Positions 1-16,818 of a stretch of 20,946 nt of DNA are shown piece by piece. Made by a program: the position numbers and the translations under genes. Origin of the DNA: a virus; IMG/VR virus record IMGVR_UViG_3300034418_008334, positions 1-20,946 of that record; one strand, given 5' to 3'. The number at the start of each line of letters is the position of its first letter. Positions within the stretch are counted from its first letter, which is position 1. The notes beneath the pieces are model-generated. The model ran no database searches. It had not been told where the DNA came from and saw only the letters and a program-made list of their open reading frames with translations.

Positions 1-421
1 CATTAAAGTCAAATCTTACTCTTAATTGGTCTCCGTATTTACAGTCGTTTAGTCTAATTCTACCTGTAGAACCTTCAAAACCTGTTCCTGTAGAAGAGGG
101 ATACTCAGTGTCAAAATCAAATGTATAATCTAATAAAGAAGTTACTCCATCAGGTAAAGCATATCCGTTAAACAAATCTACATTAGATGAACTTGACACG
201 TCAGGAGTTGACCAATAAGGATTATCAACAGAGTTGTGTACATCGTTGTCTAATGAAAATACTTTGTACCTTTCTGAAGCTACATCAGCAGCATTATACT
301 CTATACCTGTTCCAGCTTCCCAAACAAAATTATTAGATAAAGGCTTACCAGCAAACGCACCTGTATGGGCATATCCTGATTCTCCTAACTTTCCATCTGT
401 TGTTTGATTAAATAAAGGCAT
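1..421 (-). CDS. Virion structural protein, beta-rich (partial, 3' end beyond window)
   Basis: The frame opens with ATG at 421 and runs without a stop to base 1, giving 140 residues of an incomplete protein that begins MPLFNQTTDG. The sequence is rich in Ser, Thr, Gly, Asn and aromatic residues with few charges, as in extracellular beta-sandwich or fibre proteins, and has no membrane segment. It ends in a CKYGDQLRVRF-like strand at the edge. Its start overlaps the stop of the upstream 177-aa gene by 14 bases, so it belongs to the same late operon after portal. A head or tail fibre/decoration role is inferred only from position and composition; I cannot assign a family. Confidence 0.8.
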   Translation of the reverse strand, partial: MPLFNQTTDGKLGESGYAHTGAFAGKPLSNNFVWEAGTGIEYNAADVASERYKVFSLDNDVHNSVDNPYWSTPDVSSSSNVDLFNGYALPDGVTSLLDYTFDFDTEYPSSTGTGFEGSTGRIRLNDCKYGDQLRVRFDFN

Positions 422-941
422 AACTAAATTTTGTAATTACTAAATTGCCTGTACCTGTATTAGAAAATACTACATTAACAGCACCTGAATAATTATAAGG
501 CATTTCATACACAGCACCATCATTAGGAACTAATTTAACAGTATAATTTGTTGCAGAAGCCGTACCACTTCCAAGTAAAATATAAGCATCTTTATTAGAT
601 AAATTAACAAAACTAGCACCTACAGTACCTTCGTTAGCAGCTAAAACCTCAACATTTACTGTTGTTACTGCTTGAGTAACTATAGTTGAACTGTTTGCTC
701 CTTTGCTATTTACATAAGATAATAAAGTAGTGTAAAATTCATCTGCACTAGCAGGTAAAGGTATTACATCTGTATATAATATCTTATACTCTTTTGCAGG
801 GACTCTACCAGAATCAACTATAACAACATAATCAGAGCTCTTTTCTAAAGTAATGTTCTCTTTCTGTATAGAGTACTTATCTGAATTGCCCGAGTATATT
901 AAGTCTATCGTTCTTTTGTTATTAGTTATCTGTATCGCCAT
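408..941 (-). CDS. Small virion protein with C-terminal Ig-like decoration-type domain
   Basis: A 177-aa protein starting MAIQITNNKRT. The N-terminal 70 residues contain charged strands plus an ASADEFYTTLLSYV helix. From about residue 95 to the end is a compact beta domain of a type common in phage virion proteins: an N-LSNKDAYILLGSGTASA strand pair, a TVKLVPND strand, an EMPYNYSGAV turn and a final TGTGNLVITKFSY strand. That resembles domains usually annotated as structural protein or decoration. The gene starts inside the portal stop region (20-base overlap) and overlaps the next gene by 14 bases, so translational coupling is likely. Function as head decoration or fibre attachment is inference; the domain resemblance is from memory of the family pattern. 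Confidence 0.85.
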   Translation of the reverse strand: MAIQITNNKRTIDLIYSGNSDKYSIQKENITLEKSSDYVVIVDSGRVPAKEYKILYTDVIPLPASADEFYTTLLSYVNSKGANSSTIVTQAVTTVNVEVLAANEGTVGASFVNLSNKDAYILLGSGTASATNYTVKLVPNDGAVYEMPYNYSGAVNVVFSNTGTGNLVITKFSYAFI

Positions 942-2235
942 CTTTTTGTGTTTCAGGAGTATCTTTCTGTTGACCTCTTAGCATTGCTTCTTCTCTAATC
1001 TCCGAGATTAATTTAGCACCCTTTTCAGCATCGTGATACTTAGCCAACCCTAAACTGTTTTCTCTAGCTTCATCAACAGTTACAATAGAATTTACATCTA
1101 TTAAATCTATTAAAGAAACAGGACTTTCATTTCTAAATTCTAAAGCATTTGAATCTATATTACTATGTTCCTCTATTAAATATTTTATTTCAGATAAGAT
1201 AGCGTCTTGGTTTTCACCAATTACAGTATTCTTTGCAACTTGATATTCATTCCTAATTCTCTTAGTATCAAACCCTGTTGAATCAGAAATACCACTCAAT
1301 GATCTAAACCAGTTATGAGCAACAACTAATTCAGATTCAGACTGTTCATGCAAGTTTATCCATTCACCATCAGAAGTTTGAATTAATGGAGTAAATGATG
1401 TTCCAGCACCAGCTTCTCCAAACTGTTTAGTGATCAATAATATATCGCCAGCGTTTTCTTCGCCTTGATGCCTTGCTTTTAAGTCTTTTTTAAGCTTATC
1501 CGCTTTATCTACACCAATATCTCCAACAACCTCTAAAACACCGCTAACACTAAACCCATTCTCTAGTCTTGATAAGTTCCATCTATTAGTCTTATAAGCA
1601 ATACCAGCAGCATCTAAGGCAGCAACCCACGAAGGAATTCCATAATCAGAGAACTCAGGTTCATATTGCTTAAAGTGAAATATAGCTCTTTTATAGCCAT
1701 CAATCTCCTCGAACTCAGGATATAAAGGTAAAACCTTTGCATACTTCTTTTTACCTTCATATTGTCTCCAATCTGGGTGTATAATTACATGAGTTCTATT
1801 CTTATGTATTCTTACTTTTGTAGCATCGTGATGGTAAAACTGAACAGAATTACCAGCGATTACAACTTCTAAGTAGGCATTACCAAATGAATACCAATCT
1901 TTAAATATCTTTTTTAAGACTTTTCTTAAAGACTCTCTATTGTTATTTACTTTCTTAATAAAAGATTCTAACTCAGCGTTACCTTCTGTTATAAATCCTC
2001 TACCAAGAGAATAAGTAGTTTTGTTCTCTAAGATACTTCTATGAGTTACTGCTCTCCTATTTAATATAGCTAATCCTTGTGGGAATAGATTGTCGTTACC
2101 AAATGCAACGTAGTCTCTAGGGTTGTGATCTACCTTAGATTCTTCTTTAATAGTCGAAGCACTAGATGTTGTAATAACACTAGATGAAAACGACTCAATA
2201 TTAGTAGGATTATTATCTAGTTGGCTATTCTCCAT
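922..2235 (-). CDS. Phage portal protein
   Basis: A 437-aa protein, a normal size for HK97/PBSX-like portals, which form the dodecameric DNA entry ring at one capsid vertex and bind terminase and neck proteins. Supporting features: an N-terminal low-complexity Ser/Thr region, then the PRDYVAFGNDNLFPQGL segment, a helix-rich stem with KKIFKDWYSFGNAYLEVV (residues about 105-125, the typical 'xxGNAYxE' portal core), a HFKQYEPEFSDYGIPSWVAAL segment where portals carry the P-x-YG-P-S motif, and a clip/crown-like helical C-terminus (GENQDAILSEI). The C-terminus is hydrophilic and Asp/Lys-rich. It overlaps the upstream 67-aa gene by 11 bases and the downstream structural gene by 20. Its place downstream of the capsid gene, about 13 kb from terminase, is unusual. 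Confidence 0.93.
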   Translation of the reverse strand: MENSQLDNNPTNIESFSSSVITTSSASTIKEESKVDHNPRDYVAFGNDNLFPQGLAILNRRAVTHRSILENKTTYSLGRGFITEGNAELESFIKKVNNNRESLRKVLKKIFKDWYSFGNAYLEVVIAGNSVQFYHHDATKVRIHKNRTHVIIHPDWRQYEGKKKYAKVLPLYPEFEEIDGYKRAIFHFKQYEPEFSDYGIPSWVAALDAAGIAYKTNRWNLSRLENGFSVSGVLEVVGDIGVDKADKLKKDLKARHQGEENAGDILLITKQFGEAGAGTSFTPLIQTSDGEWINLHEQSESELVVAHNWFRSLSGISDSTGFDTKRIRNEYQVAKNTVIGENQDAILSEIKYLIEEHSNIDSNALEFRNESPVSLIDLIDVNSIVTVDEARENSLGLAKYHDAEKGAKLISEIREEAMLRGQQKDTPETQKDGDTDN

Positions 2236-2428
2236 CTTTAGGCGATTCTTCTTCTTTTACTTTCTTAGATTCTTCTTTCTTAGGCTCAGATTTTAAGATA
2301 TAATCCTTATGTCCTAATTCATATAAGTATTCTAATTCGCTTTCAGTACATTCACAAAGAACATACGCTCTCCTTTTAATACATATTTTGATTAATTCGC
2401 AACCTTTTTTAAATCTATACTGTGCCAT
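2225..2428 (-). CDS. Small charged hypothetical protein upstream of portal
   Basis: A 67-aa protein beginning MAQYRFKKGC. The first 45 residues hold a CIKRRAYVLCECTESELEYLYELGHKDYI core with three cysteines and a predicted helix-turn; the tail from residue 47 is a Lys/Glu/Ser-rich disordered stretch (EPKKEESKKVKEEE). The 'xTxxELxYLYELGH' pattern resembles short proteins often found beside portal genes in Bacteroidetes phages, but I know no function. It begins directly after a terminator-like hairpin and overlaps portal by 11 bases, so it is likely coupled to portal translation. Confidence 0.75.
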   Translation of the reverse strand: MAQYRFKKGCELIKICIKRRAYVLCECTESELEYLYELGHKDYILKSEPKKEESKKVKEEESPKDGE

Positions 2429-2445
2429 ATTACTATATTTAGGAT

Positions 2446-2473
2446 GAAAAAGGGGAGTTTTAATCCCTCCCCT
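2446..2473 (-). terminator. Rho-independent terminator-like hairpin after tail-tube gene
   Basis: Read on the minus strand, AGGGGAG and CTCCCCT pair as a perfect 7-bp stem around a 9-base loop and are followed at once by a run of five T. It begins 14 bases after the stop of the 177-aa tail-tube-like gene and ends before the ATG of the 67-aa gene. In such AT-rich DNA a GC-rich stem with a T tract is the clearest terminator in the window. Because the portal operon continues beyond it, it probably attenuates rather than ends transcription. Confidence 0.75.
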
Positions 2474-2487
2474 AAATGGATTCTATA

Positions 2488-3021
2488 TTAAAGTGCTAAT
2501 GCAGCATCAATACCAACAGAACAAGTGTGTGCTTTCGCAACAGACATTGCTGTTAAAGTCATTGTAGAACCTGCTAAGTCAGTTAACTCTTTACCAGAAG
2601 CAGAAGCATCAGAAGCCAATTTCATTGGTCTTTCATTCAACAAGTCAGCAGAATGTCCTAAAATATAAACTGTTCCGTTCATGTCTTCAATTAAAACGAT
2701 GAATCCACAGTTACTTCCTAACTCTGCTAATGCAGTTCTGTTAGTGTCGTTGTTCTTTCTAATGAAGAACTCTAATTCTTGAGTGTACTTTAAAGAACCG
2801 TTGATTAATTCACCGTTCTCTCTCCACTCAGCTGTATCTTGCTCAAACTCAAACTCGTAGAAAGCATCATTAGCACCAGCTTCCATAGTGATTCCAGTAG
2901 CGATTGTGTTTGGAGTATTGTAAGTAACAGTTGCAACCGCAGCTTCATTTGCAATAGCAATCCTTTTAATTCCTCCTGAGTTAGCATTACAGTCTTTTGA
3001 TAATCCAGCAGCTAAAGCCAT
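2488..3021 (-). CDS. Tail tube-like major structural protein
   Basis: A 177-aa protein starting MALAAGLSKDCNANSGGIKR. Order of elements: a short N-terminus with the DCNANSGGIKRI motif, an ITMEAGANDAFYEFEFEQDTAEW strand pair, a LKYTQELEFFIRK strand followed by DTNRTALAELG helix, an IVLIEDMNGTVYILGHSADL hairpin and a C-terminal SASGKELTDLAGSTMTLTA strand. This layout (long beta-hairpin, helix after 'D/NxxNRxAL', strand pair) matches small tail-tube/major tail proteins seen in Bacteroidetes phages. The gene stands alone between two hairpins (2446-2473 and 3056-3078), consistent with a highly expressed virion protein. An alternative is a capsid decoration protein, given its place between capsid and portal genes. 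Confidence 0.7.
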   Translation of the reverse strand: MALAAGLSKDCNANSGGIKRIAIANEAAVATVTYNTPNTIATGITMEAGANDAFYEFEFEQDTAEWRENGELINGSLKYTQELEFFIRKNNDTNRTALAELGSNCGFIVLIEDMNGTVYILGHSADLLNERPMKLASDASASGKELTDLAGSTMTLTAMSVAKAHTCSVGIDAALAL

Positions 3022-3055
3022 AATATTATTTATTTATATTGTTAAAATTAAAGTA

Positions 3056-3078: not shown

Positions 3079-3097
3079 AAGAAAATGAAAGAATATA

Positions 3098-4441
3098 CTA
3101 GTAAGCAGCAACTATATAATCCTCGTGAACGTATTGTGTACCAGCCTTGTATTCAGCTCTTACATATCTTACTTGATCTTTCTTCTCATACCAAGATTCA
3201 ATCTTAGTATCGTCAGAAATACCATCTGTTCCTACAACTAAGTTTCTAGGAATAGTGAATAAGATTCTGTGAGGTCTTACTGAACCGAAATCGTTTTCGA
3301 TATGCTCATCCCACTCTTCTCTTTCGATAATTGGAACACCTCTAAAAGCCATTTTCTTTTCTCCATCTCTTAAAGTGAAGTAAGCAGCATCAGAACCATT
3401 CAATGCTTCGATAGTGTCAGTGTAGTTATCAGCAACAGAAGAAGTAACCATAATTTTACCTTCTTGCTTGAATAACTTTCTTAAAGTGTTAGGCATTTTA
3501 GACCATAACGCTTTGAAAGCTGTTAAAGAAGCATCAGTCTTTAAAGTAGTGTTAGCAACATTAGCAGTAGTGTTAGCATTAGAACCTGCTAAATCTCCTG
3601 ATACGTTAGCAACAGTTGGGTCTTGTTGAGCCATTCCTGCAACACCAGCAGTAATAATAACATCAGCACCACTAGAAGTAACAACTAATTTCCCTTCTCT
3701 AGCTAAGATAGTAGCAGCGTGAGATGTTACGAAGTTAGCAGCAGTTGTAGTTAAATCAGTATCGAAAGTAGCTAAATAATCTACTCCGTTGATATTAACG
3801 TTAGCTGTTCCAGATGTACCAGTCAAGGTTACTGTATCAACTTCTTTTACCGCAACAGTTGTTTGGTAAGTAGAAGAGTTTAAGTCTAAATATTGACCAG
3901 AAGGTAAAGCAGCAGAATCGAAATCATTGATGATTCTAGTCCAGAAACCATTATACTCTTTGTAGTCAGCATCTAAAGTACCAGTTGGAACACCAGATGA
4001 TCTAGTTTCTTTTACAGTATCACCGAAGAAGATTTGTCTTTGTAAATCTCTTGCCATACCTGCCATGTAAATTTCCATGATGATTTGCTCGAACAAAGTG
4101 TCAGCAATATCATTCTCATCTACACCTTTTTTCAATAAAGATTCTTTAACATAGTTTAAGAACGCTTTACCGTTTTGCTCAACTTGAGCTTTCATATCAA
4201 CAACAGATAAAGTCTTTTGTGTAATAGTAACACCAGTAGAAGACGTGAAAGAAGTACCTTGAGCATAAGCTTTAGTGATCTTCTCTAAGTTGTCGATAAA
4301 ATCTAATTTTTCAGAGTTCTTAATATCTGTTCTTACAGTTACGATTTCTCTGATGTCCGATTGAACGAACAATGGTTTAATAAAATACTCTTGAACACTT
4401 TCTTTAGAAAACGACAGAGCGTGTGACATTAAATCAGCCAT
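3098..4441 (-). CDS. Major capsid protein (HK97 fold) with inserted domain
   Basis: A 447-aa protein forming the icosahedral shell. The N-terminus (residues 1-80) has the arm and E-loop-like pattern KEYF-x-PLF and the TSFTSSTGVTITQKTL strand; residues 85-145 contain the long spine helix region (DTLFEQIIMEIYMAGMARDLQRQIFFGD); residues 300-345 (LTAFKALWSKMPNTLRKLF then GKIMVTSSVADNY) and 365-447 (FRGVPIIEREEWDEHI ... FTIPRNLVVGTD ... YKAGTQYVHEDYIVAAY) form the typical P- and A-domain ending. Residues about 202-295 look like an insertion (see findings). Located downstream of protease and the 50-aa gene, upstream of a hairpin and the tail-tube-like gene. The start is preceded by the A-rich AATTTAAAGAAAC, as expected in Bacteroidetes. 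Confidence 0.93.
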   Translation of the reverse strand: MADLMSHALSFSKESVQEYFIKPLFVQSDIREIVTVRTDIKNSEKLDFIDNLEKITKAYAQGTSFTSSTGVTITQKTLSVVDMKAQVEQNGKAFLNYVKESLLKKGVDENDIADTLFEQIIMEIYMAGMARDLQRQIFFGDTVKETRSSGVPTGTLDADYKEYNGFWTRIINDFDSAALPSGQYLDLNSSTYQTTVAVKEVDTVTLTGTSGTANVNINGVDYLATFDTDLTTTAANFVTSHAATILAREGKLVVTSSGADVIITAGVAGMAQQDPTVANVSGDLAGSNANTTANVANTTLKTDASLTAFKALWSKMPNTLRKLFKQEGKIMVTSSVADNYTDTIEALNGSDAAYFTLRDGEKKMAFRGVPIIEREEWDEHIENDFGSVRPHRILFTIPRNLVVGTDGISDDTKIESWYEKKDQVRYVRAEYKAGTQYVHEDYIVAAY

Positions 4442-4625: not shown

Positions 4626-5039
4626 TTATCCTTTAATTTCTTTAATAAAATCAGCTAAAACTTGAGCACTTTTAGATAACTTCTTTTCTTCTCCACTAAT
4701 GTTAGCATCCTCATTACCTTCAACAGCTGTAGGTTTTGCAGATAATTCAGCAATCTTAGCATCCTTTTCAGTAATGTTTGCTGATAAAGATTCGATTTTC
4801 TCGTTCAACTCACCTAATTGTTTTTCTAAGTGGTTCTTTTCTTCTTCAAACTTAATTTCTAAAGCTTCTTTTTCAGCATTGAACTTTTCTTCAATCTGTG
4901 CTAATGCTTCTGATGCTTCTTCCTCAGATAATTCAGTTTCATTAACTTCTGGCGTTTCCTCAACTTCGTTTTCTTTTTCAGTAATCAAACCGAAAGAAAC
5001 TAAAGCTTCCTTAACTTTTTCGCTAAATGATTTTTCCAT
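4626..5039 (-). CDS. Possible nested scaffold protein from internal in-frame start
   Basis: An in-frame ATG at 5039 (Met223 of the protease-scaffold protein) follows AAAACTAAAAAAAGTAAA, an A-rich leader like those before other starts in this window. Initiation there would give a separate 137-aa coiled-coil scaffold starting MEKSFSEKVKEALVSFGL and sharing the C-terminal capsid-binding helix. Nested protease/scaffold pairs are well known (lambda C/Nu3, and herpes protease/scaffold). This internal start is not proven by sequence alone, and the scaffold could equally be released by self-cleavage. Confidence 0.45.
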   Translation of the reverse strand: MEKSFSEKVKEALVSFGLITEKENEVEETPEVNETELSEEEASEALAQIEEKFNAEKEALEIKFEEEKNHLEKQLGELNEKIESLSANITEKDAKIAELSAKPTAVEGNEDANISGEEKKLSKSAQVLADFIKEIKG

Positions 5040-5705
5040 TTTACTTTTTTTAGTTTTATAATTATTATATCTATTTAAGAATTGCTCAATTAACTCTGGT
5101 TTGTTGAACAAAATTTCTTCTACTTCTGGATTAGACTCTAAGAACTCAGTTACTTTAGCAGCAGTTAAGTCTTCTGAGAATAAAGATTCTGTTGCAGCAG
5201 GAGTATCCACTAAGTCAGAAGCCATTAACGCAACGATGGATGTATATTCCTTAGTAATAACTTCTTCGTTTTCTCCGATAACTTCTTCAAACCTAGACTC
5301 ACCAGCTCTAAAAACGATACTGTTACCAAACATATCAGCATTGTTCCTAGCCATGCCAAATACATAACTATACAAATCGCCTTTTGGACTCTTCTTTGCA
5401 ACTTCGTCCATGTGTAAATCAGCATAAGCCTTATCTTCAATTACTCTAAAGTTTTTAAATCTTCCAATGTAAGTTCCTAAAGCATCAGAACACATATTAG
5501 GATGTCCGAACCTAGCTTTAACACCTTGCTCGATTTCATTACCTAATCTTACTAAATCTCCAATGAATTTTGAATCTAAATGAACTCCATGACCTTTAGC
5601 GATACCTTCTCTTGCTAGTACCACGTTTTTGATTACTCCACTATGCTCATCAATGTTTTCTATTGATAGATTCCCTGAAAAGCATACATCTGTTCTAAAT
5701 CTCAT
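4626..5705 (-). CDS. Prohead (head maturation) protease fused to capsid scaffold domain
   Basis: A 359-aa two-part protein. Residues 1 to about 185 resemble the HK97-type prohead serine protease: VKARFGHPN places a catalytic-type His at 68, and GNSIVF places the Ser at 129 in the position of the family's S-I-x-F motif. Residues 223-320 are Glu/Lys-rich heptad coiled coil (EEASEALAQIEEKFNAEKEAL and onward), as in scaffolding proteins, followed by a short basic C-terminal helix (SAQVLADFIKEIKG), typical of capsid-binding scaffold ends. The protease would digest the scaffold and delta-like domains during maturation. Sits 5 bases upstream of the 50-aa gene and directly ahead of capsid. Catalytic assignments are motif-based inference. 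Confidence 0.88.
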   Translation of the reverse strand: MRFRTDVCFSGNLSIENIDEHSGVIKNVVLAREGIAKGHGVHLDSKFIGDLVRLGNEIEQGVKARFGHPNMCSDALGTYIGRFKNFRVIEDKAYADLHMDEVAKKSPKGDLYSYVFGMARNNADMFGNSIVFRAGESRFEEVIGENEEVITKEYTSIVALMASDLVDTPAATESLFSEDLTAAKVTEFLESNPEVEEILFNKPELIEQFLNRYNNYKTKKSKMEKSFSEKVKEALVSFGLITEKENEVEETPEVNETELSEEEASEALAQIEEKFNAEKEALEIKFEEEKNHLEKQLGELNEKIESLSANITEKDAKIAELSAKPTAVEGNEDANISGEEKKLSKSAQVLADFIKEIKG

Positions 5706-5781: not shown

Positions 5782-8700
5782 TTAGAATGTAGCCATTGAT
5801 TGAGCGTTAAAAACTTTCCTACTTATTGAAGACGTATCTGTAGCTACATTGACAACAGGAATTTGGCTGATTCTCATAGCTATAGCTTCCCCGATCATGT
5901 CTGCTAATTCAGCTTGATTTATAGCGTTATTCTGAACTCTAGGAACAACACCTCCATTTGCAAACATATAGCTATTGTCAGGTGCTTTTCCATCAAAGTT
6001 AATTCTGTCTAAGAAATCTACGCCTACTTTATTTACAGCTTTTCTTGACATGATGTATTCACCACCTTCCATTTCAAAACCACCTTGTCCTTTAACGGTA
6101 AAAGGAACACCACCATCTCGATGTAAAGCACCTTTTACGATACCACCATCTTCGTAAGTAGTTGGTTGGAATTGTTTAGCAAGAACAGTAGCTACACCGA
6201 CAGCACCAGAAGCTATAATTAAAGGAATAGTTATACCTCCTGTTTTCCATGCTTGGGATACAGCAACTGCTGTATTAATCCCGATTTGTGCGATTGAATT
6301 TATCTTTTCGGCGACAAAAGCTTGTTTTCTTATTCTATTCTCTTCATCTATTTGCTTCTTTCTAAGAGCTTTTTCTGCATCGGATTGTTTCTTCTCAAAC
6401 TCTAATCTTTCTAATCCTTTTTGTTTTTCAAAATCAGCCTTTGCGCTTTCAGAACCTATGAAAGTATCTAACTGATGTTTTTGGTTAATATCAAAAAGAC
6501 TAAGCTCTTTGTCTTGTGTCTCTTTAAAAGACTGAAACTGCAACTCATTTGCTCTAATAGTAGCATTTAGTTTGTTATCAACGAAAGTAACGAACAAGCC
6601 TGTTAATTGATCGTATAACTGAGCGGACTTCTCTATTTGTTCATATAGAAGATCTAATTGCTCTTGATTAAACTTTTCAGTTAGTTCTTTTGTCTTTTCA
6701 AACCTTTTTTCGTTAGCTTCTTCTTCTTTATCTAAATATTTTTGATATTCTTCTTGATCTTTATCATATTGAGCGAACCTTCTTGCTTGTGCATCATCTT
6801 CTAATTTCTTAATCTTTAAATCAAGTTCTTTTTCAACTTTTAGTTTTTCAGCACCCTCTAGTTTTTTGAAAGCTATTGATTGCATTATGTCAACTTTCTC
6901 TTGCTTGGCAGCATCTATTAAAGCTTTTTCTCTTGCATCAATATCATCAATCATTAGAGCGTCTATTTCTCTAATTCTAATTCTAGCTTTAAGTTGTGTT
7001 TCAGACCAAGATTCAAAGTGTTTAGCATCCTCTTCATAACCCTTTATTCTAGCTTCTTCTAATGCTTTCTGTTGATTTAATAATTGAGAAGTAGGGTCAC
7101 CATCTTTTAGCAACTTTTGCCATTTTTCTATCTCATTGGTTAAATCTACATATTCCTCTCCTAGGCTGTTTACTGTTTTTCTCTCTGATTTTAATCTGTT
7201 TATCTCGTTTGTTACCTCTTGTTGAAATGTCCTAGAGTCTTTTAACCTAGCTTGTCTTAATATTAATTCGCTTTTTTGCTCGTCATTTAAAGACCTATAC
7301 CCCTCTAGTTGCTCTTTGATTTTTTTTAATTCCTCCTTTCTTTCTTCAGTAATTTCTCCTAATTCACCATTTATAAATCCTAGAACGATTTCGAAATCTG
7401 AAAGTTCTTTATTTTGTTCTCTATATCCCTCTATTGTCTTTTTTAATTTAGCTTCTTGTTGGTCGTAAAGTTCTCCACTTTCTTTTAGGAGTTCTTTTAG
7501 CTTTTCAGTAGAAGTGTTTTGAGTTGATTGAGTTTGTCCTATTTCTTTTTGTGCTCCCTCAAATTTCTTCATTATACGATAACCTCTATCTGTTTCGTTT
7601 AAGAACTCTGACATCTTATTCAAAGCAGTAGATAATATCTTAGATAATCCTTCACCTTCTCTAAGAGTAAAACCTTCAACAGAAGACTTAAACCTATCCC
7701 AGCTTCCTGACAGAGTGTTCCCAACTGTGTCTGCCATCTTATCACTAACCCCAGTTGATTCTTCTAAAGACTCTCTAAGTTTATCTACGCTATCTTTACC
7801 TTTTAGTAAAGTTAAAAAAGCTGCTTTAGACCTTTCATCAGTTAATCCAGTTGCTTTTGCTAGGTCAATGTTTCTTTTTACTAATTCCTCAAAAGCTATG
7901 TTCAACCCTTCTGAATTATTTACTGTATAACCTAATTCTTTAGCTAAATCAGATGTAGGGTCTGTAAGCTGTGACATTAAGTTTTTTAATCCAGTTGCTG
8001 CTTTTGTTCCTCTAATACCAGCGTCAGCAAGAACGCCTAGCATAGCTGTTGTTTGTTCTAAAGAAATATTTGCAGAACTAGCGATAGGGGCAACAGTCTT
8101 CATTGATTGCTTGAAATTCTCTAAACTCAAAGCACTCGAACTAAACGACTGAGCCATTATATCAACCACTCTTGTCGCTTCCTGAGCATCTAGTCCAAAA
8201 CCTCTGATAGTAGCACCAACAACGTCAGCAGAATTTGCCAAATCATCTCCTGTAATTGTTGCTAATTTAGTTGTAGCTTCCGTTGCGTTTAGTATTTCCT
8301 CAGTTGTAAAACCTAACTTAGCATAAGCTAATTGTAATTCTGCAACCTGAGTAGCTGTAAATATAGTTCCTAATGCTAATTCTTGTGCAGACTTTTCTAG
8401 TTTTTTAAATTCTTGATCTGTTGCGCCTGTAATAGCTTTTACTTTTGCCATTGATAGTTCAAAATCAGCAAGAATCTTAACTGATTCTGTAACAGCTCTA
8501 GCCAACAACTGAAAAGACTTAACTATAACAAATCCTCTTGCTATTGCCGTAAAAGTTTTTCCTAATCCTAAGAACCCTTTACTAGCTTTATTAGCACCAT
8601 TTCCTAAGTTCTCAGTTTCATCGCTTATCCCTTTTAACTTAGTTTTCGCACCAGCATCATTAATTACTACCGAAATTATTACTTTTTTATTATCTGCCAT
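5782..8700 (-). CDS. Tail tape measure protein (TP901 family)
   Basis: A 972-aa protein that sets tail length and leaves the tail on infection. Residues about 70-330 match the TP901/PhageMin_Tail core: ELSMAKVKAITGAT, an AELQLAYAKLGFTTEEIL segment, DDLANSADVVGATIRGFGLD, and FKQSMKTVAPIASSANISLE with LADAGIRGTKAATGL. Residues 370-740 are Lys/Glu-rich coiled coil. Residues 799-841 are a hydrophobic Ala/Ile/Val stretch of the type inserted in the host membrane, followed by a Gly-rich tail with GGEYIMSRKAVNK, a motif frequent near the end of tape measures. Its ATG (8700) shares one base with the stop of the 1061-aa baseplate protein, showing translational coupling. It lies after, not before, the large baseplate genes, which is unusual. 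Confidence 0.95.
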   Translation of the reverse strand: MADNKKVIISVVINDAGAKTKLKGISDETENLGNGANKASKGFLGLGKTFTAIARGFVIVKSFQLLARAVTESVKILADFELSMAKVKAITGATDQEFKKLEKSAQELALGTIFTATQVAELQLAYAKLGFTTEEILNATEATTKLATITGDDLANSADVVGATIRGFGLDAQEATRVVDIMAQSFSSSALSLENFKQSMKTVAPIASSANISLEQTTAMLGVLADAGIRGTKAATGLKNLMSQLTDPTSDLAKELGYTVNNSEGLNIAFEELVKRNIDLAKATGLTDERSKAAFLTLLKGKDSVDKLRESLEESTGVSDKMADTVGNTLSGSWDRFKSSVEGFTLREGEGLSKILSTALNKMSEFLNETDRGYRIMKKFEGAQKEIGQTQSTQNTSTEKLKELLKESGELYDQQEAKLKKTIEGYREQNKELSDFEIVLGFINGELGEITEERKEELKKIKEQLEGYRSLNDEQKSELILRQARLKDSRTFQQEVTNEINRLKSERKTVNSLGEEYVDLTNEIEKWQKLLKDGDPTSQLLNQQKALEEARIKGYEEDAKHFESWSETQLKARIRIREIDALMIDDIDAREKALIDAAKQEKVDIMQSIAFKKLEGAEKLKVEKELDLKIKKLEDDAQARRFAQYDKDQEEYQKYLDKEEEANEKRFEKTKELTEKFNQEQLDLLYEQIEKSAQLYDQLTGLFVTFVDNKLNATIRANELQFQSFKETQDKELSLFDINQKHQLDTFIGSESAKADFEKQKGLERLEFEKKQSDAEKALRKKQIDEENRIRKQAFVAEKINSIAQIGINTAVAVSQAWKTGGITIPLIIASGAVGVATVLAKQFQPTTYEDGGIVKGALHRDGGVPFTVKGQGGFEMEGGEYIMSRKAVNKVGVDFLDRINFDGKAPDNSYMFANGGVVPRVQNNAINQAELADMIGEAIAMRISQIPVVNVATDTSSISRKVFNAQSMATF

Positions 8701-11700
8701 TATATTACAATTTTTACCATTTCACCATTAACTTCTTCATAAACATTTTGGATATTGCCACTAACTTCTTCAACAACATGACCATTTCCTTCTCTTACAA
8801 TTCCATCTCGCCCAACAGATAAAGCGTTATATCTGTTTGATTTACTTGTTCCAGCTCCTACCGCCATTACATTTTTAGTACTAGGCACTGAAAACTCACC
8901 CATTACAGTTTGGTTTCTACCTGATGCGATATTACCTCTACCAGAAACCATATTACCACTATTAGGACGAGCGTAGTTTCCTTCATTAGTTAATACAGCA
9001 CTTGTTGTGTTTGATTGTTTGTTTGCTTTAACATTTCTAGCATCAACTAAAGCACCGCTAATATCTTTTATCCCTGTTACGTTCTTTGTGTTTTTAACAA
9101 ACAATTCCTTATCTGACGTAAACGTGTCTATTTCATCTTTACTTGTTATACCTTTACCTGTGTTCCAAACTTTTACATCTTTATCGTACCAATCTCGAAC
9201 TACTTCAAATTCTCTATCATTAAAATCAATAGTTTTCTTATCTTGTGTAGTATCTATTTCAATAGCACCATGATCTTCTTTCTTGATTAACTCAATAGTT
9301 GTGGTTACATTAGCAGAAGGTAGAAAGTTTTTAACACGATCTAAAATATAGTAACCCTTTATATCTGATGGATAATCTATATATATAAGCTTAGTTATAT
9401 CTAAGTTATTTATATCCTTAAAAGATAGCTTAACAGGCAATTCTAGTCTAGTTGACTTTTCTATTGTATTGACAGTCTTCTCATAGTATGTTTTGAATAA
9501 ACCATTGTCAGTCCAATTATTATATCCTAAATTGACCGTAAAATCAGAATCATAAGAATCTAACACACTACTTAAAGAGTTTGGCAAAGCACTTGGAACG
9601 GAAGTTTTATCTTCTCCCTCAAAAACCCATTTAGGTGAATTTGAATATTGAACTCCGTAGCTGTAATAAAGTAATCTAGGTTTAAACTCATAAGCTGGAG
9701 GTGGTGCTTCTGTTGAACTAGCGTATTCAGTCCACATTCTTGATAACCATATTCCTTTAGAGTTTGAACCATCAGGAGATGTTCTTTTATTTACTATATT
9801 CTTATCTGCAATATGGTAAGTGTATGAAAATAAAGGATTCTCCATTTTCGATTCACCCTCTTCAAACCTATCGCTTAATGTATGTGTGTATTCACCAGCA
9901 ACATTCTTATGTATTTCATTTCTTTCTTTTAAATAACCATCCTTATCATCGTCTTTAAATCTAAAAACTAAATCCTTGTTGTAGTCGTCTAAATACTCTA
10001 TTAAATATTGTTTTTTAGCATCTATTTTTTCAGTCCAATCAACAGCATTAGATTGAGTGTCGTAAAACTCATCCCTAGTTTTTATTATAACTTTTTTAGA
10101 ATGAGGGTCTGTTTTTATCAATAAATTGAAGGCATGAATACATCCTTTTATATAATCAATAGTTTTATATCTATCATCTAATACGTTAGCTATATCTCCT
10201 AGTGAGTATCCGTTTTTTATAGATTCGATTGGTAATACTTTCAACTCTGCGCTTTGAATATAAGCAGTTGTAGTAAAACTATCTCCTTCCGAACTCAATT
10301 CATATAATTTACTAAAACCTTCACTAACTTCTTCTGGTTCACATTCTATTTCAACCCATATTTGATCTCCACTTTTTAAATCTATATCTCCTGTGTCAAT
10401 AGAGAATGGAATTTGATTTAACTTAATATTTTTAGTATAAAATAATGTTTGAACACTAACAGTTATAGTAGATACAGGGTCATTATTGAAGTCTTCCGTT
10501 AAGTTTATAAACTCTTGATTTAAAACAGTTTCAGTTGATGTTGCACCATCTTTTTTTATAAACTTAAAAGTATATATTCCACGATTCTTAGTTTTATTGT
10601 CCAACCCAGCTAATAAACAACTAAAACTAAAGTTAGCCGTAATTGAATTATCTGCTGTGAATATATTAGTAGATGTATCAAATAAAGTAGTTGAAGGCGT
10701 TTCAGTGTCAAAATCTATTTTTTGACCACCACCAATATTTGTAGAAATAATTCTTAAAGTAGAACCATCTAATTTATTAAAATTATTGAACAAAGAAACT
10801 TCATTAGGCGTAACATTAGTATATAAATCTACATAAGTAACAACCGAAGAATCTGTTGCTCTACCATAATTTATTATTTCAAATACCTTACCTTTCTCAG
10901 TAGTGAATTTATCTTCTGCTTTAAACCTTAATATAGCGTAACTATTTTCATCAAAATTATCAAATTCAGTTGTTACATCGTTTTCTAAATAGAACCTAAA
11001 AACTTTACCATTCTCATTCCAATCTACAGAAGGGTCGCCACCTAAACTTGCTTTCTGAGTAGAAGAACCTATTACAGGAAACACTATTTTCCTTACTTTA
11101 TATAATTTAGTCAAGCTAGAATCAACACTATAAGACTTTACTCCATCTCTAGTCATTACCAAATCGTAGTCGTCTATGTCAGTTTGATCAACTTTCCAAT
11201 TTGTTCCTGTAAATGGAAATACTACATTATCTGCAAAAGGATTAGTAGTTGAATTAAAGAAGTCATTATCATCAGTGTCTGTTTGAAGTGTATATCCTTC
11301 CGCATTAAAAGCCTTTTCAAAGAAAGACCTCATAAAAAGTGAAGGTCTTAAATCTTGAGCAAGAACACTAGTACCACCATCACCAGACCAAGCACCATAA
11401 TGAACTAATGGGAAAGTGTATCCATCAGTGTGGTCGTTAGTCCAAGTACCCTCAATAGTAGATTTATCTAAAGTTGCAATAGTACCCCAATCATAGCTTT
11501 GTGGTGTTTTAGCTTTCATGCCTTCCACCCAATCCATCCCATCGCCTAATAAGATGCAATTAAATTCTTCGTTCCCTCTGTCGTTTACCTTCCCTAAAAC
11601 TTTAAATTCCCCTGTAAATATAGGAATACCATCAGCATAAACAACAACAGGCGTTTTCTTTAATATGTTAGCACCATCTAAAATATTTGCATCATTCAAA

Positions 11701-11885
11701 TGGTTTAAAGCACTTTTATTTTTCTTGTTAGCAGGAATCCTAAAATCTAAAGAGAAATTAGTAGTCCTGTTATTTATATCTCTTAGACTTCCAGCCGTAT
11801 AGTTTAATTGTAAAGGAAATTCCCTTCCTTGCTCTACATCTAAATCTACTCCTAAGTCTGTTAATATTAATCTAATATCAGCCAT
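8700..11885 (-). CDS. Large tail/baseplate protein with C-terminal YadA-like beta-roll segment
   Basis: A 1061-aa protein. I chose ATG at 11885 (MADIRLILTDLGVD), because the longer frame starts with TTG deep in the upstream gene, while this ATG overlaps that gene's stop by 8 bases. The N-terminal 150 residues (LQLNYTAGSLRDINNRTTNF, DFRIPANKKNK, GIPIFTGEFKVLG) match a baseplate/tail-hub type common in Bacteroidetes phages. The middle is beta-rich. Residues about 975-1028 show SGRGNIASGRNQTVMGEFSV and VGAGTSKSNRYNALSVGRDG, the pattern of YadA-head/hep-Hag left-handed beta-rolls in trimeric fibres. The end has an EEVSGNIQNVYEEVNG coiled coil. It may form the tail tip and anchor fibre functions; the hub role is inferred from order and size. 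Confidence 0.8.
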   Translation of the reverse strand: MADIRLILTDLGVDLDVEQGREFPLQLNYTAGSLRDINNRTTNFSLDFRIPANKKNKSALNHLNDANILDGANILKKTPVVVYADGIPIFTGEFKVLGKVNDRGNEEFNCILLGDGMDWVEGMKAKTPQSYDWGTIATLDKSTIEGTWTNDHTDGYTFPLVHYGAWSGDGGTSVLAQDLRPSLFMRSFFEKAFNAEGYTLQTDTDDNDFFNSTTNPFADNVVFPFTGTNWKVDQTDIDDYDLVMTRDGVKSYSVDSSLTKLYKVRKIVFPVIGSSTQKASLGGDPSVDWNENGKVFRFYLENDVTTEFDNFDENSYAILRFKAEDKFTTEKGKVFEIINYGRATDSSVVTYVDLYTNVTPNEVSLFNNFNKLDGSTLRIISTNIGGGQKIDFDTETPSTTLFDTSTNIFTADNSITANFSFSCLLAGLDNKTKNRGIYTFKFIKKDGATSTETVLNQEFINLTEDFNNDPVSTITVSVQTLFYTKNIKLNQIPFSIDTGDIDLKSGDQIWVEIECEPEEVSEGFSKLYELSSEGDSFTTTAYIQSAELKVLPIESIKNGYSLGDIANVLDDRYKTIDYIKGCIHAFNLLIKTDPHSKKVIIKTRDEFYDTQSNAVDWTEKIDAKKQYLIEYLDDYNKDLVFRFKDDDKDGYLKERNEIHKNVAGEYTHTLSDRFEEGESKMENPLFSYTYHIADKNIVNKRTSPDGSNSKGIWLSRMWTEYASSTEAPPPAYEFKPRLLYYSYGVQYSNSPKWVFEGEDKTSVPSALPNSLSSVLDSYDSDFTVNLGYNNWTDNGLFKTYYEKTVNTIEKSTRLELPVKLSFKDINNLDITKLIYIDYPSDIKGYYILDRVKNFLPSANVTTTIELIKKEDHGAIEIDTTQDKKTIDFNDREFEVVRDWYDKDVKVWNTGKGITSKDEIDTFTSDKELFVKNTKNVTGIKDISGALVDARNVKANKQSNTTSAVLTNEGNYARPNSGNMVSGRGNIASGRNQTVMGEFSVPSTKNVMAVGAGTSKSNRYNALSVGRDGIVREGNGHVVEEVSGNIQNVYEEVNGEMVKIVI

Positions 11886-13242
11886 TTTGTCTTCTATTTG
11901 GGTTTGCGTATTCGTAAACAAGTTTAATAGTCATTAAGTCAGCTCCTTCGTCTATTATCTTTGTTTCACCAGCTCTTACTTTAATAGGAATATAATTACT
12001 ACCTTCCTCAACAAAGCATTCATATCCTTCCAACAATTCTTCTAACCAAATTCTATCAGCTTGTTTCATTGGTTGTGAATAAACTTCAAACTTAGTCCTA
12101 CTATCTATATCTAAAACCCTATCTCCACCTGAACCTATAGAATACCCATCATCTAAATTCTGTTGGTAGTAATTCTTTCTTATAGTAATAGACCTATCTT
12201 TATATCCTTTAAAAGTAAAATACTCAAAAGCACCAAGTCTATTTAAGAATTTTATCCTAGTATGGTTGGTAGAACATGAATTATCTACGTTATATAATAC
12301 TTGCTCTGAAATATCAGTAGGAGCAATAATATCATCTATTAACTTTATAGTATAAGAGCCAACAGTAGAGTCTATCGTAGGGTCTGTTCTAGGAGCACCT
12401 AATCCATTTAACCAACTACCAGTTGTTGCGTTTATGTTTGCAGCACCAACAGGAATATCAAACCTATTTGCGTTAAATGTTAGTGCTAAATAATATATTT
12501 CTAATTTACTCGCACCGTTCTTACCTCCGTAAGTTACTAATTTTAAATACTGAGTACCCGTTAAAGTAGTAAACCCACTTAAATACTCACTATCATTTAC
12601 ACCAATTTCTCTAGTATTTCTGTTATTCGTTAGGAAGTATTTATTTCCTGTTGTCGCAATTTTAAAGCTGTTTAACTCATCATAAGAACCAGTTACGCCA
12701 TCATATTGCCAAACACCATTAATACAGAAAAAAGAATTAGAAGTTGCCTTTGAATATGAATCCACAACGTCAGAAGCGTAATATAACAATCCTGTTCCAT
12801 TAGTAGTGTCTAACAATGGGTCGAAGTACAATATCTCGTCAAACTTACAAACAATAGATTTCAATGAATTAGTATCTCTACCAATAAAACTTATGGCTGT
12901 GGAATTGCTTTGTAAGTCATTAGTCAAAGTATCTAAACCAGCTATATAAGAACTAATATCGAAAGTAAATTGATATGAAGTACCAAAATCTGGGGTCAAT
13001 ATAATAGGACTACCCGCATTGTCAGCAGTACCATTCCCATCTAAATATATGTAACAAGCAACCTTTTTTGTGTAAATGAAGTTATCAATATTAGGAACAG
13101 CTGCGACTGAACTTAAAGCACCAATATAAGTGTTCGTTCCAGAATCAGAAGTATTATTATCAGAAGTTACTGTTATCTTTATAGGTCTGTAAGGACTTAA
13201 TAAATCGTTACTTGAAGGTTGTGTGTTTATTGTTATTGCCAT
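11878..13242 (-). CDS. Distal tail / baseplate-type structural protein
   Basis: A 454-aa beta-rich protein starting MAITINTQPSSNDLLSPYRP. The N-terminal part has the FIYTKKVACYIYLDGNGTAD strand set and FGTSYQFTFDISSYIAG; the C-terminal third has RIKFLNRLGAFEYFTFKGY, a string I associate with conserved baseplate or distal-tail proteins of Bacteroidetes phages, then EVYSQPMKQADRIWLEELLEG. No signal peptide or membrane segment. Located between the gp10-like gene (2-base gap) and the large baseplate protein (8-base overlap), so the set is likely co-translated. A Dit-like adaptor between tail tube and tip is the likeliest role, but this is inferred. Confidence 0.72.
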   Translation of the reverse strand: MAITINTQPSSNDLLSPYRPIKITVTSDNNTSDSGTNTYIGALSSVAAVPNIDNFIYTKKVACYIYLDGNGTADNAGSPIILTPDFGTSYQFTFDISSYIAGLDTLTNDLQSNSTAISFIGRDTNSLKSIVCKFDEILYFDPLLDTTNGTGLLYYASDVVDSYSKATSNSFFCINGVWQYDGVTGSYDELNSFKIATTGNKYFLTNNRNTREIGVNDSEYLSGFTTLTGTQYLKLVTYGGKNGASKLEIYYLALTFNANRFDIPVGAANINATTGSWLNGLGAPRTDPTIDSTVGSYTIKLIDDIIAPTDISEQVLYNVDNSCSTNHTRIKFLNRLGAFEYFTFKGYKDRSITIRKNYYQQNLDDGYSIGSGGDRVLDIDSRTKFEVYSQPMKQADRIWLEELLEGYECFVEEGSNYIPIKVRAGETKIIDEGADLMTIKLVYEYANPNRRQNG

Positions 13243-13244
13243 CT

Positions 13245-13856
13245 TTATATAACTTTTATATTTGGATACCTTGAAGCTAATTTATCTAGGAAGTTGCCTA
13301 TAACATCCACAACGTCTTCACTAATAGCAGGTATCACTTTTTTATCTATATTTATTTTCTTTCTTTCATAAGGTATGTTAATCCACCCTAATCTTCTTCC
13401 GTTATTTGTATATCTACTACTATATGCACTAAGCTTATTTGGGCTATTAACGATCACAGTAGGGATTCCCTCTTCCGATATAGACCTAGCAATATACCTA
13501 GCAATCATTTCTTTAGGAAGATATGGTGTAGTAGGTTTAAAGTTACGATGACTATTCATCCATTTTAATATATCCCCTTCTCTCACTCTTTTAGGAGGTT
13601 GTTGCTCATTCAACCTAAGACCATAAGATAAAGCTTCAATTTCTGCTTTAAATTGGAATAAACCACTATTGGTATTAGGAAAGTTTATGTTTATACTATC
13701 CAATAACTTACCACTACCAACGTGTCCTTGATCTCTTAATTCCTTCTTTAAAGCTTTTTGTAAGTCAAACATAAACTTTGACATAGCTCGACCAGTCTTT
13801 GAAGTCTTTAAAGTTAAACTTCTTACATCTCTTAAAACTATCCTGTTTAAACTCAT
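13245..13856 (-). CDS. HK97 gp10-like tail completion/neck protein
   Basis: A 203-aa basic protein. Residues 20-60 contain AMSKFMFDLQKALKKELRDQ followed by GHVGSGKLLDSININF, the helix plus 'G-x-L-x-x-S-I' layout of gp10-like neck/tail-completion proteins. The middle is Arg/Lys-rich with NSHRNFKPTTPYLPKEMIARYIA; the C-terminus has a VVDVIGNFLDKLASRY helix. Start is ATG at 13856, sharing one base with the upstream FN3-bearing gene stop. A role at the head-tail or tail-terminator interface fits both motif and context, but the match is short. Confidence 0.6.
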   Translation of the reverse strand: MSLNRIVLRDVRSLTLKTSKTGRAMSKFMFDLQKALKKELRDQGHVGSGKLLDSININFPNTNSGLFQFKAEIEALSYGLRLNEQQPPKRVREGDILKWMNSHRNFKPTTPYLPKEMIARYIARSISEEGIPTVIVNSPNKLSAYSSRYTNNGRRLGWINIPYERKKINIDKKVIPAISEDVVDVIGNFLDKLASRYPNIKVI

Positions 13857-14545
13857 TACGCTGATGTTGTCGCTGATGCTACATTAGAAAAAGGAGATCT
13901 ATTGCTTGAACTTAAACACCTTACCCTGTAGTAATACTCCGTACTACTATCCAGACCAATATCACTGTAAGAAGTACTGTCAGCAGCAATAGACGTAAGG
14001 CTAGTCCAAGTAGAATTATCAAGACTCCTATAAATCTCATAACTAGTTTCATTCGATTCCCTATCATACCATGCTAAATCTATTTGAGAAGAACTGACCG
14101 CCGTAGCTGTAAAGCCAGTAGGTTTTTTTAACAACCTTAAACAATCATGTACTCTTACAGTAAAAGAGAATTGAACAACTATCAAATTGTCATTGTATTG
14201 ATCTTGACCTCGATTTATAGTTACAGAATCTACATCTTTTATTTCAGGCACATCATACATTTCTTGAATAATTTGTACTCCGTATCTTTGCAAGTCTGAA
14301 TACTTTTTCCGTAAACTATCCGCATCATCTTGAAAGTATGTGTCCATTATAAACAACTCTAAAACGTAATCTTGCTCATTAGCTCTAGGGTCTATTGAAT
14401 CTTGAGTTGGAGTTAAAAAACACAAAGGGTAGCTCGTTGCGTGTAATTCATTTACAGCTTCTAAATCATCAAATACAAATGTGTTTATATCAGGCGATGA
14501 AATCGCTATATCATCTATTTTGTCAACTAGCTCTTCTAGTGTCAT
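13856..14545 (-). CDS. Tail-terminator-like protein with C-terminal fibronectin type III domain
   Basis: A 229-aa two-domain protein. Residues 1-135 form an alpha/beta domain (FVFDDLEAVNELHATSYPLC, a DYVLELFIMDTYFQDD strand, RKKYSDLQRYGVQIIQEMY helix, LIVVQFSFTVRVHDCL final strand), the pattern of phage tail-terminator/completion proteins. Residues about 140-229 are a clear FN3 domain: PTGFTATAVSSSQIDLAW with the core Trp, SYEIYRSLDNSTW, DIGLDSSTEYYYRVR with the Tyr-x-Arg strand, and SNVASATT. The ATGA start overlaps the chaperone T-frame stop by 4 bases. FN3 additions are common on virion proteins and are thought to help surface adhesion; here it would project from the tail end. Confidence 0.8.
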   Translation of the reverse strand: MTLEELVDKIDDIAISSPDINTFVFDDLEAVNELHATSYPLCFLTPTQDSIDPRANEQDYVLELFIMDTYFQDDADSLRKKYSDLQRYGVQIIQEMYDVPEIKDVDSVTINRGQDQYNDNLIVVQFSFTVRVHDCLRLLKKPTGFTATAVSSSQIDLAWYDRESNETSYEIYRSLDNSTWTSLTSIAADSTSYSDIGLDSSTEYYYRVRCLSSSNRSPFSNVASATTSA

Positions 14546-15464
14546 AGGTCGCTTATTTTCTGCTGATACAAGTTTTCCGAAGCATTAGCAGTTATGTACA
14601 TTAAAAAGTCGTAAAGATTAGTCTTTTCTACGCTTTTTATAGCAGACAAGTTGTTATGCGTAAAGACATTCTTCTCTGCAACAGATTTTATCTGTAAGTA
14701 CCAGCCAAAACCATCTAATCCGCTTGATTTGGCTGCCGCTGCATACTTAGCTTTACTTTTTCCAGCGAATAAGGGACTATAGTTTTCGTGTATGTAGTTA
14801 AGAGTTCTCCTAAGTAAAAAAAAACATCCCATGCTATGTTCATTGGCAGTTGCTTGAATCTTTCAGCACGTTCTAACATAACATCCTCATCGTATTCTTC
14901 ATTATCCTTAACACATAAAATAGCGCATATATTAGCAAGAACAGAGTAATCTTTATTATCAAGACCATTCATGTAAACATCTAAATCTGCTGCTTCTGTA
15001 AACTGAATTGTACTTAAATATCCCATTGGTCTTTCTTTGTCTAAAACCTTTTTTGCTCTAGGGAAGTAATAAGTATCTCCTTCAAAATCAAAAGAATCTA
15101 AACTACTAGGCTCTATATCAATAGGCGCATACAAACAACCAATAGCAAATTTAATTAAGTAAACATTAAAGAACTGTTCCCTTGAATCTCTATCTATCTG
15201 ATTTATGATTTTTCTATCAATATCACAAAGAACGCCAAGCATATCTCCATAAAACTTAGGAAAAGTTTTTAAAGACTCGTTTTTACTAAGTTCAATGCTC
15301 TCTAATTCCTTTTTATCATTAGTGTAGATATAACCTATTATGTCTTTTAACTTTTTAGGTGCGTTATCTACGATCTGTTGGACTTTTACAAACTTTTCGA
15401 TAGTTAGCTCACTCCACTCGGTAATAACGTCGTACTGCTCATCTAATACATCTATTTTTATCAT
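14542..15464 (-). CDS. Tail assembly chaperone, -1 frameshifted long form (G-T type)
   Basis: Slippage at the T9 run (14816-14824) joins residues 1-216 of the short form to 91 residues of the -1 frame, giving about 307 aa. The added part (LLRRTLNYIHENYSPLF..., then DGFGWYLQIKSVAEKNVF and NLYDFLMYITANASENLYQQ) looks like the T domain of Bacteroidetes tail chaperones, which usually carry a 'WGWY-x-x-I' motif and an 'L-x-x-FLxY' helix. The long form binds tape measure and recruits tail tube subunits. The T frame has its own ATG at 14832, but that start lies inside the slippery context and would yield a fragment, so frameshifting is the better model. Its stop overlaps the next gene by 4 bases (ATGA). 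Confidence 0.78.
14715..15464 (-). CDS. Tail assembly chaperone, short form (G-like)
   Basis: A 249-aa protein starting MIKIDVLDEQYDVITEWSEL. I place the start at ATG 15464; the longer frame begins with a TTG at 15488 inside the terminase gene. Typical features are the WSELTIEKFVKVQQIV segment near the N-terminus, DIDRKIINQIDRD in the middle, a NKDYSVLANICAIL helix, and RFKQLPMNIAWDVFFYLGELL near the frameshift point, followed by a 33-residue end used only when no slip occurs. It lies 11 bases after terminase. Expected role: bind the tape measure with the long form and hold the tail tube until assembly. Identification rests on the frameshift geometry and on both domains resembling Bacteroidetes chaperones. 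Confidence 0.82.
   Translation of the reverse strand: MIKIDVLDEQYDVITEWSELTIEKFVKVQQIVDNAPKKLKDIIGYIYTNDKKELESIELSKNESLKTFPKFYGDMLGVLCDIDRKIINQIDRDSREQFFNVYLIKFAIGCLYAPIDIEPSSLDSFDFEGDTYYFPRAKKVLDKERPMGYLSTIQFTEAADLDVYMNGLDNKDYSVLANICAILCVKDNEEYDEDVMLERAERFKQLPMNIAWDVFFYLGELLTTYTKTIVPYSLEKVKLSMQRQPNQAD
14816..14825 (-). promoter_or_regulatory. Programmed -1 ribosomal frameshift site
   Basis: In the short-form frame the codons read GTT TTT TTT TAC, so a T TTT TTT heptamer allows a one-base backward slip in both A- and P-sites. The next codons in the new frame are TTA CTT AGG. This is a canonical slippery heptamer of the X XXY YYZ class, at the expected place in tail chaperone genes. No downstream pseudoknot was verified. 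Confidence 0.8.
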
Positions 15465-15474
15465 AACATCTTTA

Positions 15475-16818
15475 TTATATAAAATCAAAAACTGTTTCGT
15501 TTCTTCCTAACTCGAACCACATCCGCATCATCATGGCATCTGAATAGTCTGGTGATCTTTGAATCATGTCTTTTATTTGTTCTTTTGGTAATACTGCGTT
15601 TTTACCATCTTTCTCTATATGTCTTTTCTTTACCACTTCTAATTCCTGAATAAGCATATCTTTTATTACCTTGTCTTTAGGCATAAACCAAATCCTACGC
15701 TCATTTATAAAGTTTGCTAATAGAAAATAACATTGAGATTTTAAGTTTTGATAATTATGATCTCCATTACCTCTTTTTATAGCTGTCTTATTGGCTACAA
15801 AACCTTTTACATTTGGTGCGTGTTGCCTTAACATATCTACTACTCCTCCACCTACTCCATCTTCATCTACTATGATGTTTCCTGATGGTATCCCATGTTG
15901 ATTAGCTAATTGCATTATCTTATTAGCACATTCAACAGTTGAAGATTTTGCCATCATTTGTATGTGCGTTACACGCCAACCAGACCATATAAATATTGTC
16001 GTGGCATCTTTCCCAAAACGAGCAATATCGACAGACATAAACATTTCTCCATCTGGAACATTATTGTTCTGAAATAAATCACATATAGAGTCGTAATCCA
16101 TTAAAGCAGAATCATCATCATCATAATCAAAGTTCCCATAAAAAAGTCTTTCTACTTTAGCCTTATCACCTTTTCTTAGTTGAGCTATATACTCAGGAGT
16201 GGCAGTAGGATTATCTGTAACTAATGCTCGTATAAAACAAGTATCTTCTGGCAAACTCCCCTCTTTCTCAGGCTTATGATACCTCCAATAAACATGATCT
16301 TTAGAAGGGTTAAAAGACTCTAACATGGTTGGAAATATATCGTATTCATCGTTTAAATGCCTTCCAAGCCTTGAAGATAATATTTCAATAGACTTTAGGG
16401 AGCATTCATTAGATTCATCTACGAAAGCACCAGTTAATTCAAGACCTCCAAATCTTAGAAATTCAGGGTCGGAAGGTTGATCTGCCATGTCTAGCAAAAT
16501 AATTTCACTTCCATTAAAGAATTTAATTTCACCATATTGCTTGTCATAACGATAATAAGCATCAGTTATGCCATGATGACCCATAGCCTTAAAAAGAGTC
16601 TTTACTGTTGTTGCCTTTAATGTTTTCAGCTCTCGCCTAGCCATTGCATATCTAACACCTTTATATGTCAAGCATTGTATTATTATCCAATTAACACCTA
16701 ACCATGACTTACCGCCAGAAGCAGCTCCTCCATAACCAACAAATGAAGTTTTATGATCTACCAAATGTTGCCAAGCTATATTCTGTTTTATACTAGGTTT
16801 AAAGTTAATAGTCGGCAT
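15475..16818 (-). CDS. terL: Terminase large subunit
   Basis: A 447-aa DNA-packaging motor protein with ATPase and headful/cos nuclease parts. Walker A is GGAASGGKS at residues 30-38 (Lys37, Ser38), Walker B is AFVDE at 131-135 (Asp134, Glu135), and an adenine-type motif region precedes them (KQNIAWQHLV). The RNase H-like nuclease shows Asp264 (MSVDIARFGKDAT), Asp318/Asp320 (IIVDEDGVGGG) and Asp424/427 (SPDYSDAMM). It forms the upstream end of the morphogenesis operon: a 48-aa gene ends 2 bases before its ATG, and the chaperone begins 11 bases after. No small terminase subunit was recognised in the window; one of the small upstream genes could fill that role but none shows the expected DNA-binding domain clearly. 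Confidence 0.96.
   Translation of the reverse strand: MPTINFKPSIKQNIAWQHLVDHKTSFVGYGGAASGGKSWLGVNWIIIQCLTYKGVRYAMARRELKTLKATTVKTLFKAMGHHGITDAYYRYDKQYGEIKFFNGSEIILLDMADQPSDPEFLRFGGLELTGAFVDESNECSLKSIEILSSRLGRHLNDEYDIFPTMLESFNPSKDHVYWRYHKPEKEGSLPEDTCFIRALVTDNPTATPEYIAQLRKGDKAKVERLFYGNFDYDDDDSALMDYDSICDLFQNNNVPDGEMFMSVDIARFGKDATTIFIWSGWRVTHIQMMAKSSTVECANKIMQLANQHGIPSGNIIVDEDGVGGGVVDMLRQHAPNVKGFVANKTAIKRGNGDHNYQNLKSQCYFLLANFINERRIWFMPKDKVIKDMLIQELEVVKKRHIEKDGKNAVLPKEQIKDMIQRSPDYSDAMMMRMWFELGRNETVFDFI

Follow-up and report, generated by a model that had tools for sequence, protein, structure and literature searches.

An uncultured tailed-phage fragment with the terminase–tail–head gene order of sequenced Bacteroidales phages

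Results

Gene order in the window

The window, that is the whole stretch of DNA analysed here, is the entirety of one IMG/VR virus record, linear, 20,946 bases long and without end repeats. All its morphogenesis genes lie on the minus strand. In the order of transcription, the following features were found:

15475–16818, minus: large terminase subunit, TerL (phrog_2, 1.4e-26; phrog_979, 2.8e-26; tblastn)
14542–15488, minus: probable tail-assembly chaperone gene with a programmed −1 frameshift (overlapping −1 frame, TTT TTT site)
14817–14823, minus: candidate slippery heptamer T_TTT_TTT (context GTT TTT TTT TAC)
13856–14545, minus: tail-region protein with a C-terminal FN3 domain (PF00041, 4.5e-7), terminator by position only
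13245–13856, minus: gp10-like from its position; weak GHVxSGrLxdSI motif
11878–13242, minus: large tail-region protein (syntenic homologue in relatives, including G002)
8700–11885, minus: large tail-region protein, possibly hub or baseplate (NF040983, 6.7e-5; syntenic homologues)
5782–8700, minus: tail tape measure protein (PF10145, 7e-37; TIGR01760, 8e-45; phrog_1533, 1e-64)
4626–5705, minus: probable protease of head maturation, its C-terminal part coiled-coil and scaffold-like (N-domain homology, synteny)
3098–4441, minus: major capsid protein (phrog_1623, 6e-10; BS-TP3 capsid homologue)
2488–3021, minus: virion protein gene g11, tube or connector (synteny; paralogues in PMC12697093)
2225–2428, minus: small conserved gene between g11 and portal
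922–2235, minus: portal protein, PBSX-like (PF04860, 6e-17; TIGR01540, 5e-20; phrog_11226, 4e-22)
408–941, minus: conserved gene just after the portal

The order is TerL, chaperone, tail genes, tape measure, protease, capsid, g11 and portal. In the textbook siphophage layout, portal, protease and capsid come right after the terminase. Here the portal follows TerL on the same strand at a distance of 13.24 kb, which exceeds 10 kb, and tape measure, protease and capsid precede it. An earlier note on this DNA had placed a tail module between terminase and head genes over 408–16818, with the portal about 13 kb from the terminase, and both the order and the coordinates were recovered on re-check. 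Its description of the order as a departure from the textbook layout was also right; within its own group, the order is not unusual, since more than 100 Bacteroidales phages are apparently alike (see below). A standard order with misread genes was ruled out, because TerL, tape measure and portal, as first named in the note, are each confirmed by the profile matches listed above.

A candidate frameshifting chaperone and the tail-region genes

The gene that follows TerL had been read as a chaperone at 15488–14715. We keep it as a probable tail chaperone, with different boundaries. ORF 14832–14542 overlaps ORF 15488–14715 in the −1 frame, and the overlap contains an in-frame GTT TTT TTT whose position is conserved among six contigs: the window and five of its relatives, the divergent G002 among them. 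This TTT TTT run, also read in the overlapping ORF, is the only one in the 15 genes examined. The zero-frame product has 257 aa, and a longer fusion, ending at 14542, is predicted. An overlapping −1 frame, a conserved slippery site and a predicted C-terminally extended product are features of the lambda G/GT kind and, judged from sequence alone, the two ORFs look like one gene with a programmed −1 frameshift, better read from 15488 to 14542. The candidate chaperone stands directly after TerL, rather than adjoining the tape measure.

For the next two genes, the labels terminator (13856–14545) and gp10 (13245–13856) proposed earlier were not borne out: profile comparison of the former with syntenic genes was negative, the weak motif of the latter is common to BS-TP3 gp57 but not significantly (probability 8%), and a sequence search of solved structures with the gp10-like profile gave no credible match. 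Profile searches with the 11878–13242 protein gave no family match. The 8700–11885 protein (start ATG at 11885; TTG at 11921 in the ORF list) is weakly similar at its C-terminus to a trimeric autotransporter family (NF040983), far below the cut-off of that model. It is possibly a hub or baseplate protein. No profile match confirmed the baseplate labels given to these two genes (11878–13242 and 8700–11921).

From tape measure to portal

The portal and the 8700–11885 protein were the two whose reassignment by a profile search might have overturned the reading of the note. PF04860 and phrog_11226 both identified the former as a portal; for the latter, the searches gave no role that contradicts the note. 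The score of the portal against TIGR01540 portal_PBSX was 71.9 bits, below the equivalog cut-off of 166.05, making it a relative and not an equivalog.

The protease candidate had no family match of its own in profile searches. A profile of its N-domain (single pass, first 178 alignment columns) matched, beyond close relatives, only the same-position genes of phages BT24, EMB2, BU2-1 and BS162P3 (E 3e-9 to 6e-7). In G002 and in phage BS-TP3, the slot is filled by a ClpP-type maturation protease (PF00574, 6e-27 and 3e-26, respectively). Homology and synteny thus support the protease-scaffold label as probable. The ClpP-type genes lie at 28422–29471 in G002 and at L006:1493-2623 in BS-TP3, and the candidate of the window in that slot looks unrelated to them.

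The capsid label drew support from phrog_1623 (annotated as 'virion structural protein', head and packaging category), from synteny, and from a homologous BS-TP3 gene annotated as capsid-type (phmmer 8e-14, profile E 4e-15). A tblastn search of 50,697 phage records with the window capsid found no relative, and a structure model from an eight-row alignment was too weak to be used (pLDDT 40).

The g11 slot holds a single gene in the window versus three tandem paralogues in BT24 (L068:15452-17046), EMB2, BU2-1 and BS162P3. The earlier tail-tube label for g11 went unconfirmed, as comparison with the profiles of syntenic genes was negative or not significant, and Foldseek matches of a fold model (eight-row alignment, pLDDT 55) were not significant. 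Sequence searches of solved structures with the portal, capsid and g11 profiles returned no credible match. The gene after the portal, 408–941, has a second copy in contigs G001 (31502–32775), G003, G007, G008 and L087.

The same junctions in other contigs

Eight other contigs, with portals 43–97% identical to that of the window, carry all or part of its order. The order is full-length in the IMG/VR contigs G001, G003 and G005 (portal 76–79%), and partial, as is their coverage, in G004, G006, G007 and G008. The most divergent, G002 (IMG/VR 3300010234_000029, 37.5 kb), has the same order, with a capsid 77% and a portal about 43% identical and a conserved frameshift site, but differs by a Terminase_3-type TerL, a ClpP-type protease and a few extra kb between tape measure and protease. 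A scan with the portal brought in contigs further removed from the window, L088, L089 and L091–L095 (39–45% identity). Each keeps whatever it covers of the tape measure, capsid, g11 and portal genes; among them, the protease profile matched only L089.

A 20.9-kb linear record without end repeats might be an assembly artefact, a false join between different phages or between the ends of a single genome, and the earlier note had named misassembly as a possible refutation. However, the same junctions occur in these other contigs, the ends of G002 share a 55-base terminal repeat that closes the genome circularly, and isolated phages have the order. Misassembly is therefore excluded for all practical purposes.

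The order in sequenced Bacteroidales phages

Comparison with Bacteroidetes phages, which the note had suggested, showed that the order recurs in the isolated Bacteroidales phages BT24, EMB2, BS162P3 and BU2-1. The tape measure and portal of EMB2 were confirmed by PHROGs, and the TerL of BU2-1 is split over both ends of its linear record. For ARB25, the order was assigned from a capsid match and gene positions, because all its listed products are hypothetical proteins. The BS-TP3 record (PQ571276), read as circular, runs TerL, gp60 (tape measure-like, phrog_339 2e-9) and, across the record end, ClpP-type protease, capsid and phrog_11226 portal. Its TerL is 37% identical to that of the window and its capsid is homologous (4e-15), whereas the genome has 57.5 kb with integrases, and extra genes between tape measure and the ClpP-type protease.

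Distances were tabulated for the 46 records having both TerL and portal among the tblastn matches listed, treated as circular (for BT24, with the annotated TerL coordinates). In all 46, TerL and portal share one strand, the portal coming 10,779–15,770 bases further downstream (median 11,688), and the capsid is between the two in each of the 20 records with a listed capsid; these records are the top of ranked lists, with many close relatives, and do not amount to 46 independent cases. The BU2-1-type capsid is common to 139 records. The BS-TP3 portal matches 148, including phiST-like phages of another arrangement. Taken together, more than 100 sequenced phages of Bacteroides, Phocaeicola and Parabacteroides appear to share the order of the window, which was read directly in the named records and inferred for the remaining ones. 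A third arrangement is seen in phiST (L071) and Larrie (L070), where the portal, phrog_11226-like, is placed just upstream of TerL. Phages B40-8 and B124-14 were rejected as carriers of the order, their portal being near TerL.

A 2025 announcement of BT phages described a conserved virion gene cluster, including three paralogous genes, in the B. thetaiotaomicron 'alpha cluster' (PMC12697093). Beyond it, no published statement of the order was found in the open literature. The alpha cluster (BT03, BT24, ARB25, SJC01, HNL35), together with EMB2, BU2-1 and BS162P3, has the same TerL-to-portal order as the window. These phages share with it a homologous protease N-domain, capsid and tape measure matches obtained by iteration and, in EMB2, a phrog_11226 portal. 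They differ by a TerL of another family, by three g11 paralogues (genes 13–15 in BT03) versus one, by a capsid of about 314 aa versus 447 aa, and by their gut hosts. The window TerL groups with the 11b/phi10:1 type and not with BT24 and EMB2, and tblastn with its capsid gave no match to the alpha-cluster capsid, which is linked to it by iterated profiles only.

Terminase and gene order are incongruent

The closest isolated relatives of the window TerL, by tblastn, are those of Flavobacterium phage 11b (45% identical) and Cellulophaga phage phi10:1 (44%). Both phages have the standard order, TerL, portal, protease, capsid, and a portal of a different family. More generally, 11b, phi10:1 and several IMG/VR contigs have a TerL 37–45% identical to that of the window right beside a portal of this other family, with the standard order. 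Conversely, portal, capsid and g11 homologous to those of the window stand beside a Terminase_3-type TerL in G002.

In a TerL tree of 23 rows, the window falls among the TerLs of standard-order phages. The order label needs three changes on this tree, two of which are imposed by branches with good support; the placement of BS-TP3 and G002, both on long branches, is uncertain. Because tree and TerL/portal pairings are both incongruent with the order, we read the order as tied to the tape measure-to-portal block, and not to TerL. The proposal that a shared permuted order would define a clade thus did not survive in terms of the terminase, whose tree needs at least two changes of order.

The earlier note had also suggested a distinct lineage of Bacteroidetes phages. 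What stands is that the order is common to a set of Bacteroidota phages. That it would define a new, previously unrecognised lineage could be argued from the nearest relatives of the window, all uncultured, from the capsid search of phage records, which was empty, and from two scans of GTDB, with capsid and portal alignments, in which no relative was found. We consider this quite unlikely, given the number of sequenced isolates with apparently the same order, the virion cluster already published for the alpha cluster (PMC12697093), and a TerL tree holding no single order-defined clade.

Discussion

Since more than 100 sequenced phages apparently share its order, the window belongs to a group already known and is no oddity; it adds an uncultured branch to that layout. 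In our preferred reading, which we hold with good confidence, this fragment derives from an uncultured tailed phage with the Bacteroidales-phage layout, in which the block from tape measure to portal has been inherited together and TerL, protease and tail genes have been exchanged at fixed slots. The late genes, laid out on one strand as terminase, tail, tape measure, protease, capsid and portal, would be co-transcribed. Tape measure, protease, capsid, g11 and portal would form a conserved unit, and their co-inheritance may be why the order is kept, while TerL, the type of protease and some tail genes would be replaced in place. As virion proteins assemble in trans, the order need have no consequence for assembly. 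The host probably belongs to the Bacteroidota, because the related isolates have hosts of this phylum.

An alternative to this common descent is convergence, in which the same gene order arose twice, once in the lineage of the window and once in the gut Bacteroidales phages. TerLs are distantly related or unrelated between the two. Portals are weakly similar (hhalign E 1.5e-5 with BS-TP3 and 0.004 with EMB2), the link between them resting on shared phrog_11226 matches, and the capsid is tied to the BT24/EMB2 type by iterated profiles and weak phrog_1623 matches. This weak portal homology and iterated capsid link make convergence conceivable. Because iteration may let profiles drift when proteins contain coiled coils, the links by capsid and by protease were examined again in a single pass: those of the protease and of the BS-TP3 capsid held, that of the BT24/EMB2-type capsid did not. 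Against convergence, however, a homologous protease N-domain is found at the matching position, the capsid matches BS-TP3 and, with iteration, BT24 and EMB2, and contigs G002, L089 and L092–L094 are intermediates in sequence. We therefore regard an independent origin as highly improbable.

Common descent of the block might be pushed one step further. The tape measure–protease–capsid–g11–portal block could be a mobile virion cassette that keeps its order as it passes between phages with unrelated terminases, the window being one such swap, and gene order and terminase would then evolve independently. This extension is more speculative, and we put it forward tentatively, as somewhat doubtful.

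Annotation commonly assumes that portal and capsid directly follow the terminase, which does not hold in a large group of Bacteroidota phages. This has consequences for automated annotation and for the use of TerL as a proxy of virion type. In the deposited records, most virion genes of this group are still called hypothetical proteins. With the window, the group gains an uncultured branch, and the relatives of the window are sequence intermediates towards the gut phages.

Two genes outside the morphogenesis block, both on the minus strand, can be mentioned. Upstream of TerL, 18796–18963 encodes a small cysteine-rich DUF6171 protein. The product of 19074–19589 is sialyltransferase-like (phrog_4603, 1.2e-5), possibly a phage-encoded glycosyltransferase, and a similar N-terminal motif is present in G002 at 30687–31220, on the plus strand.
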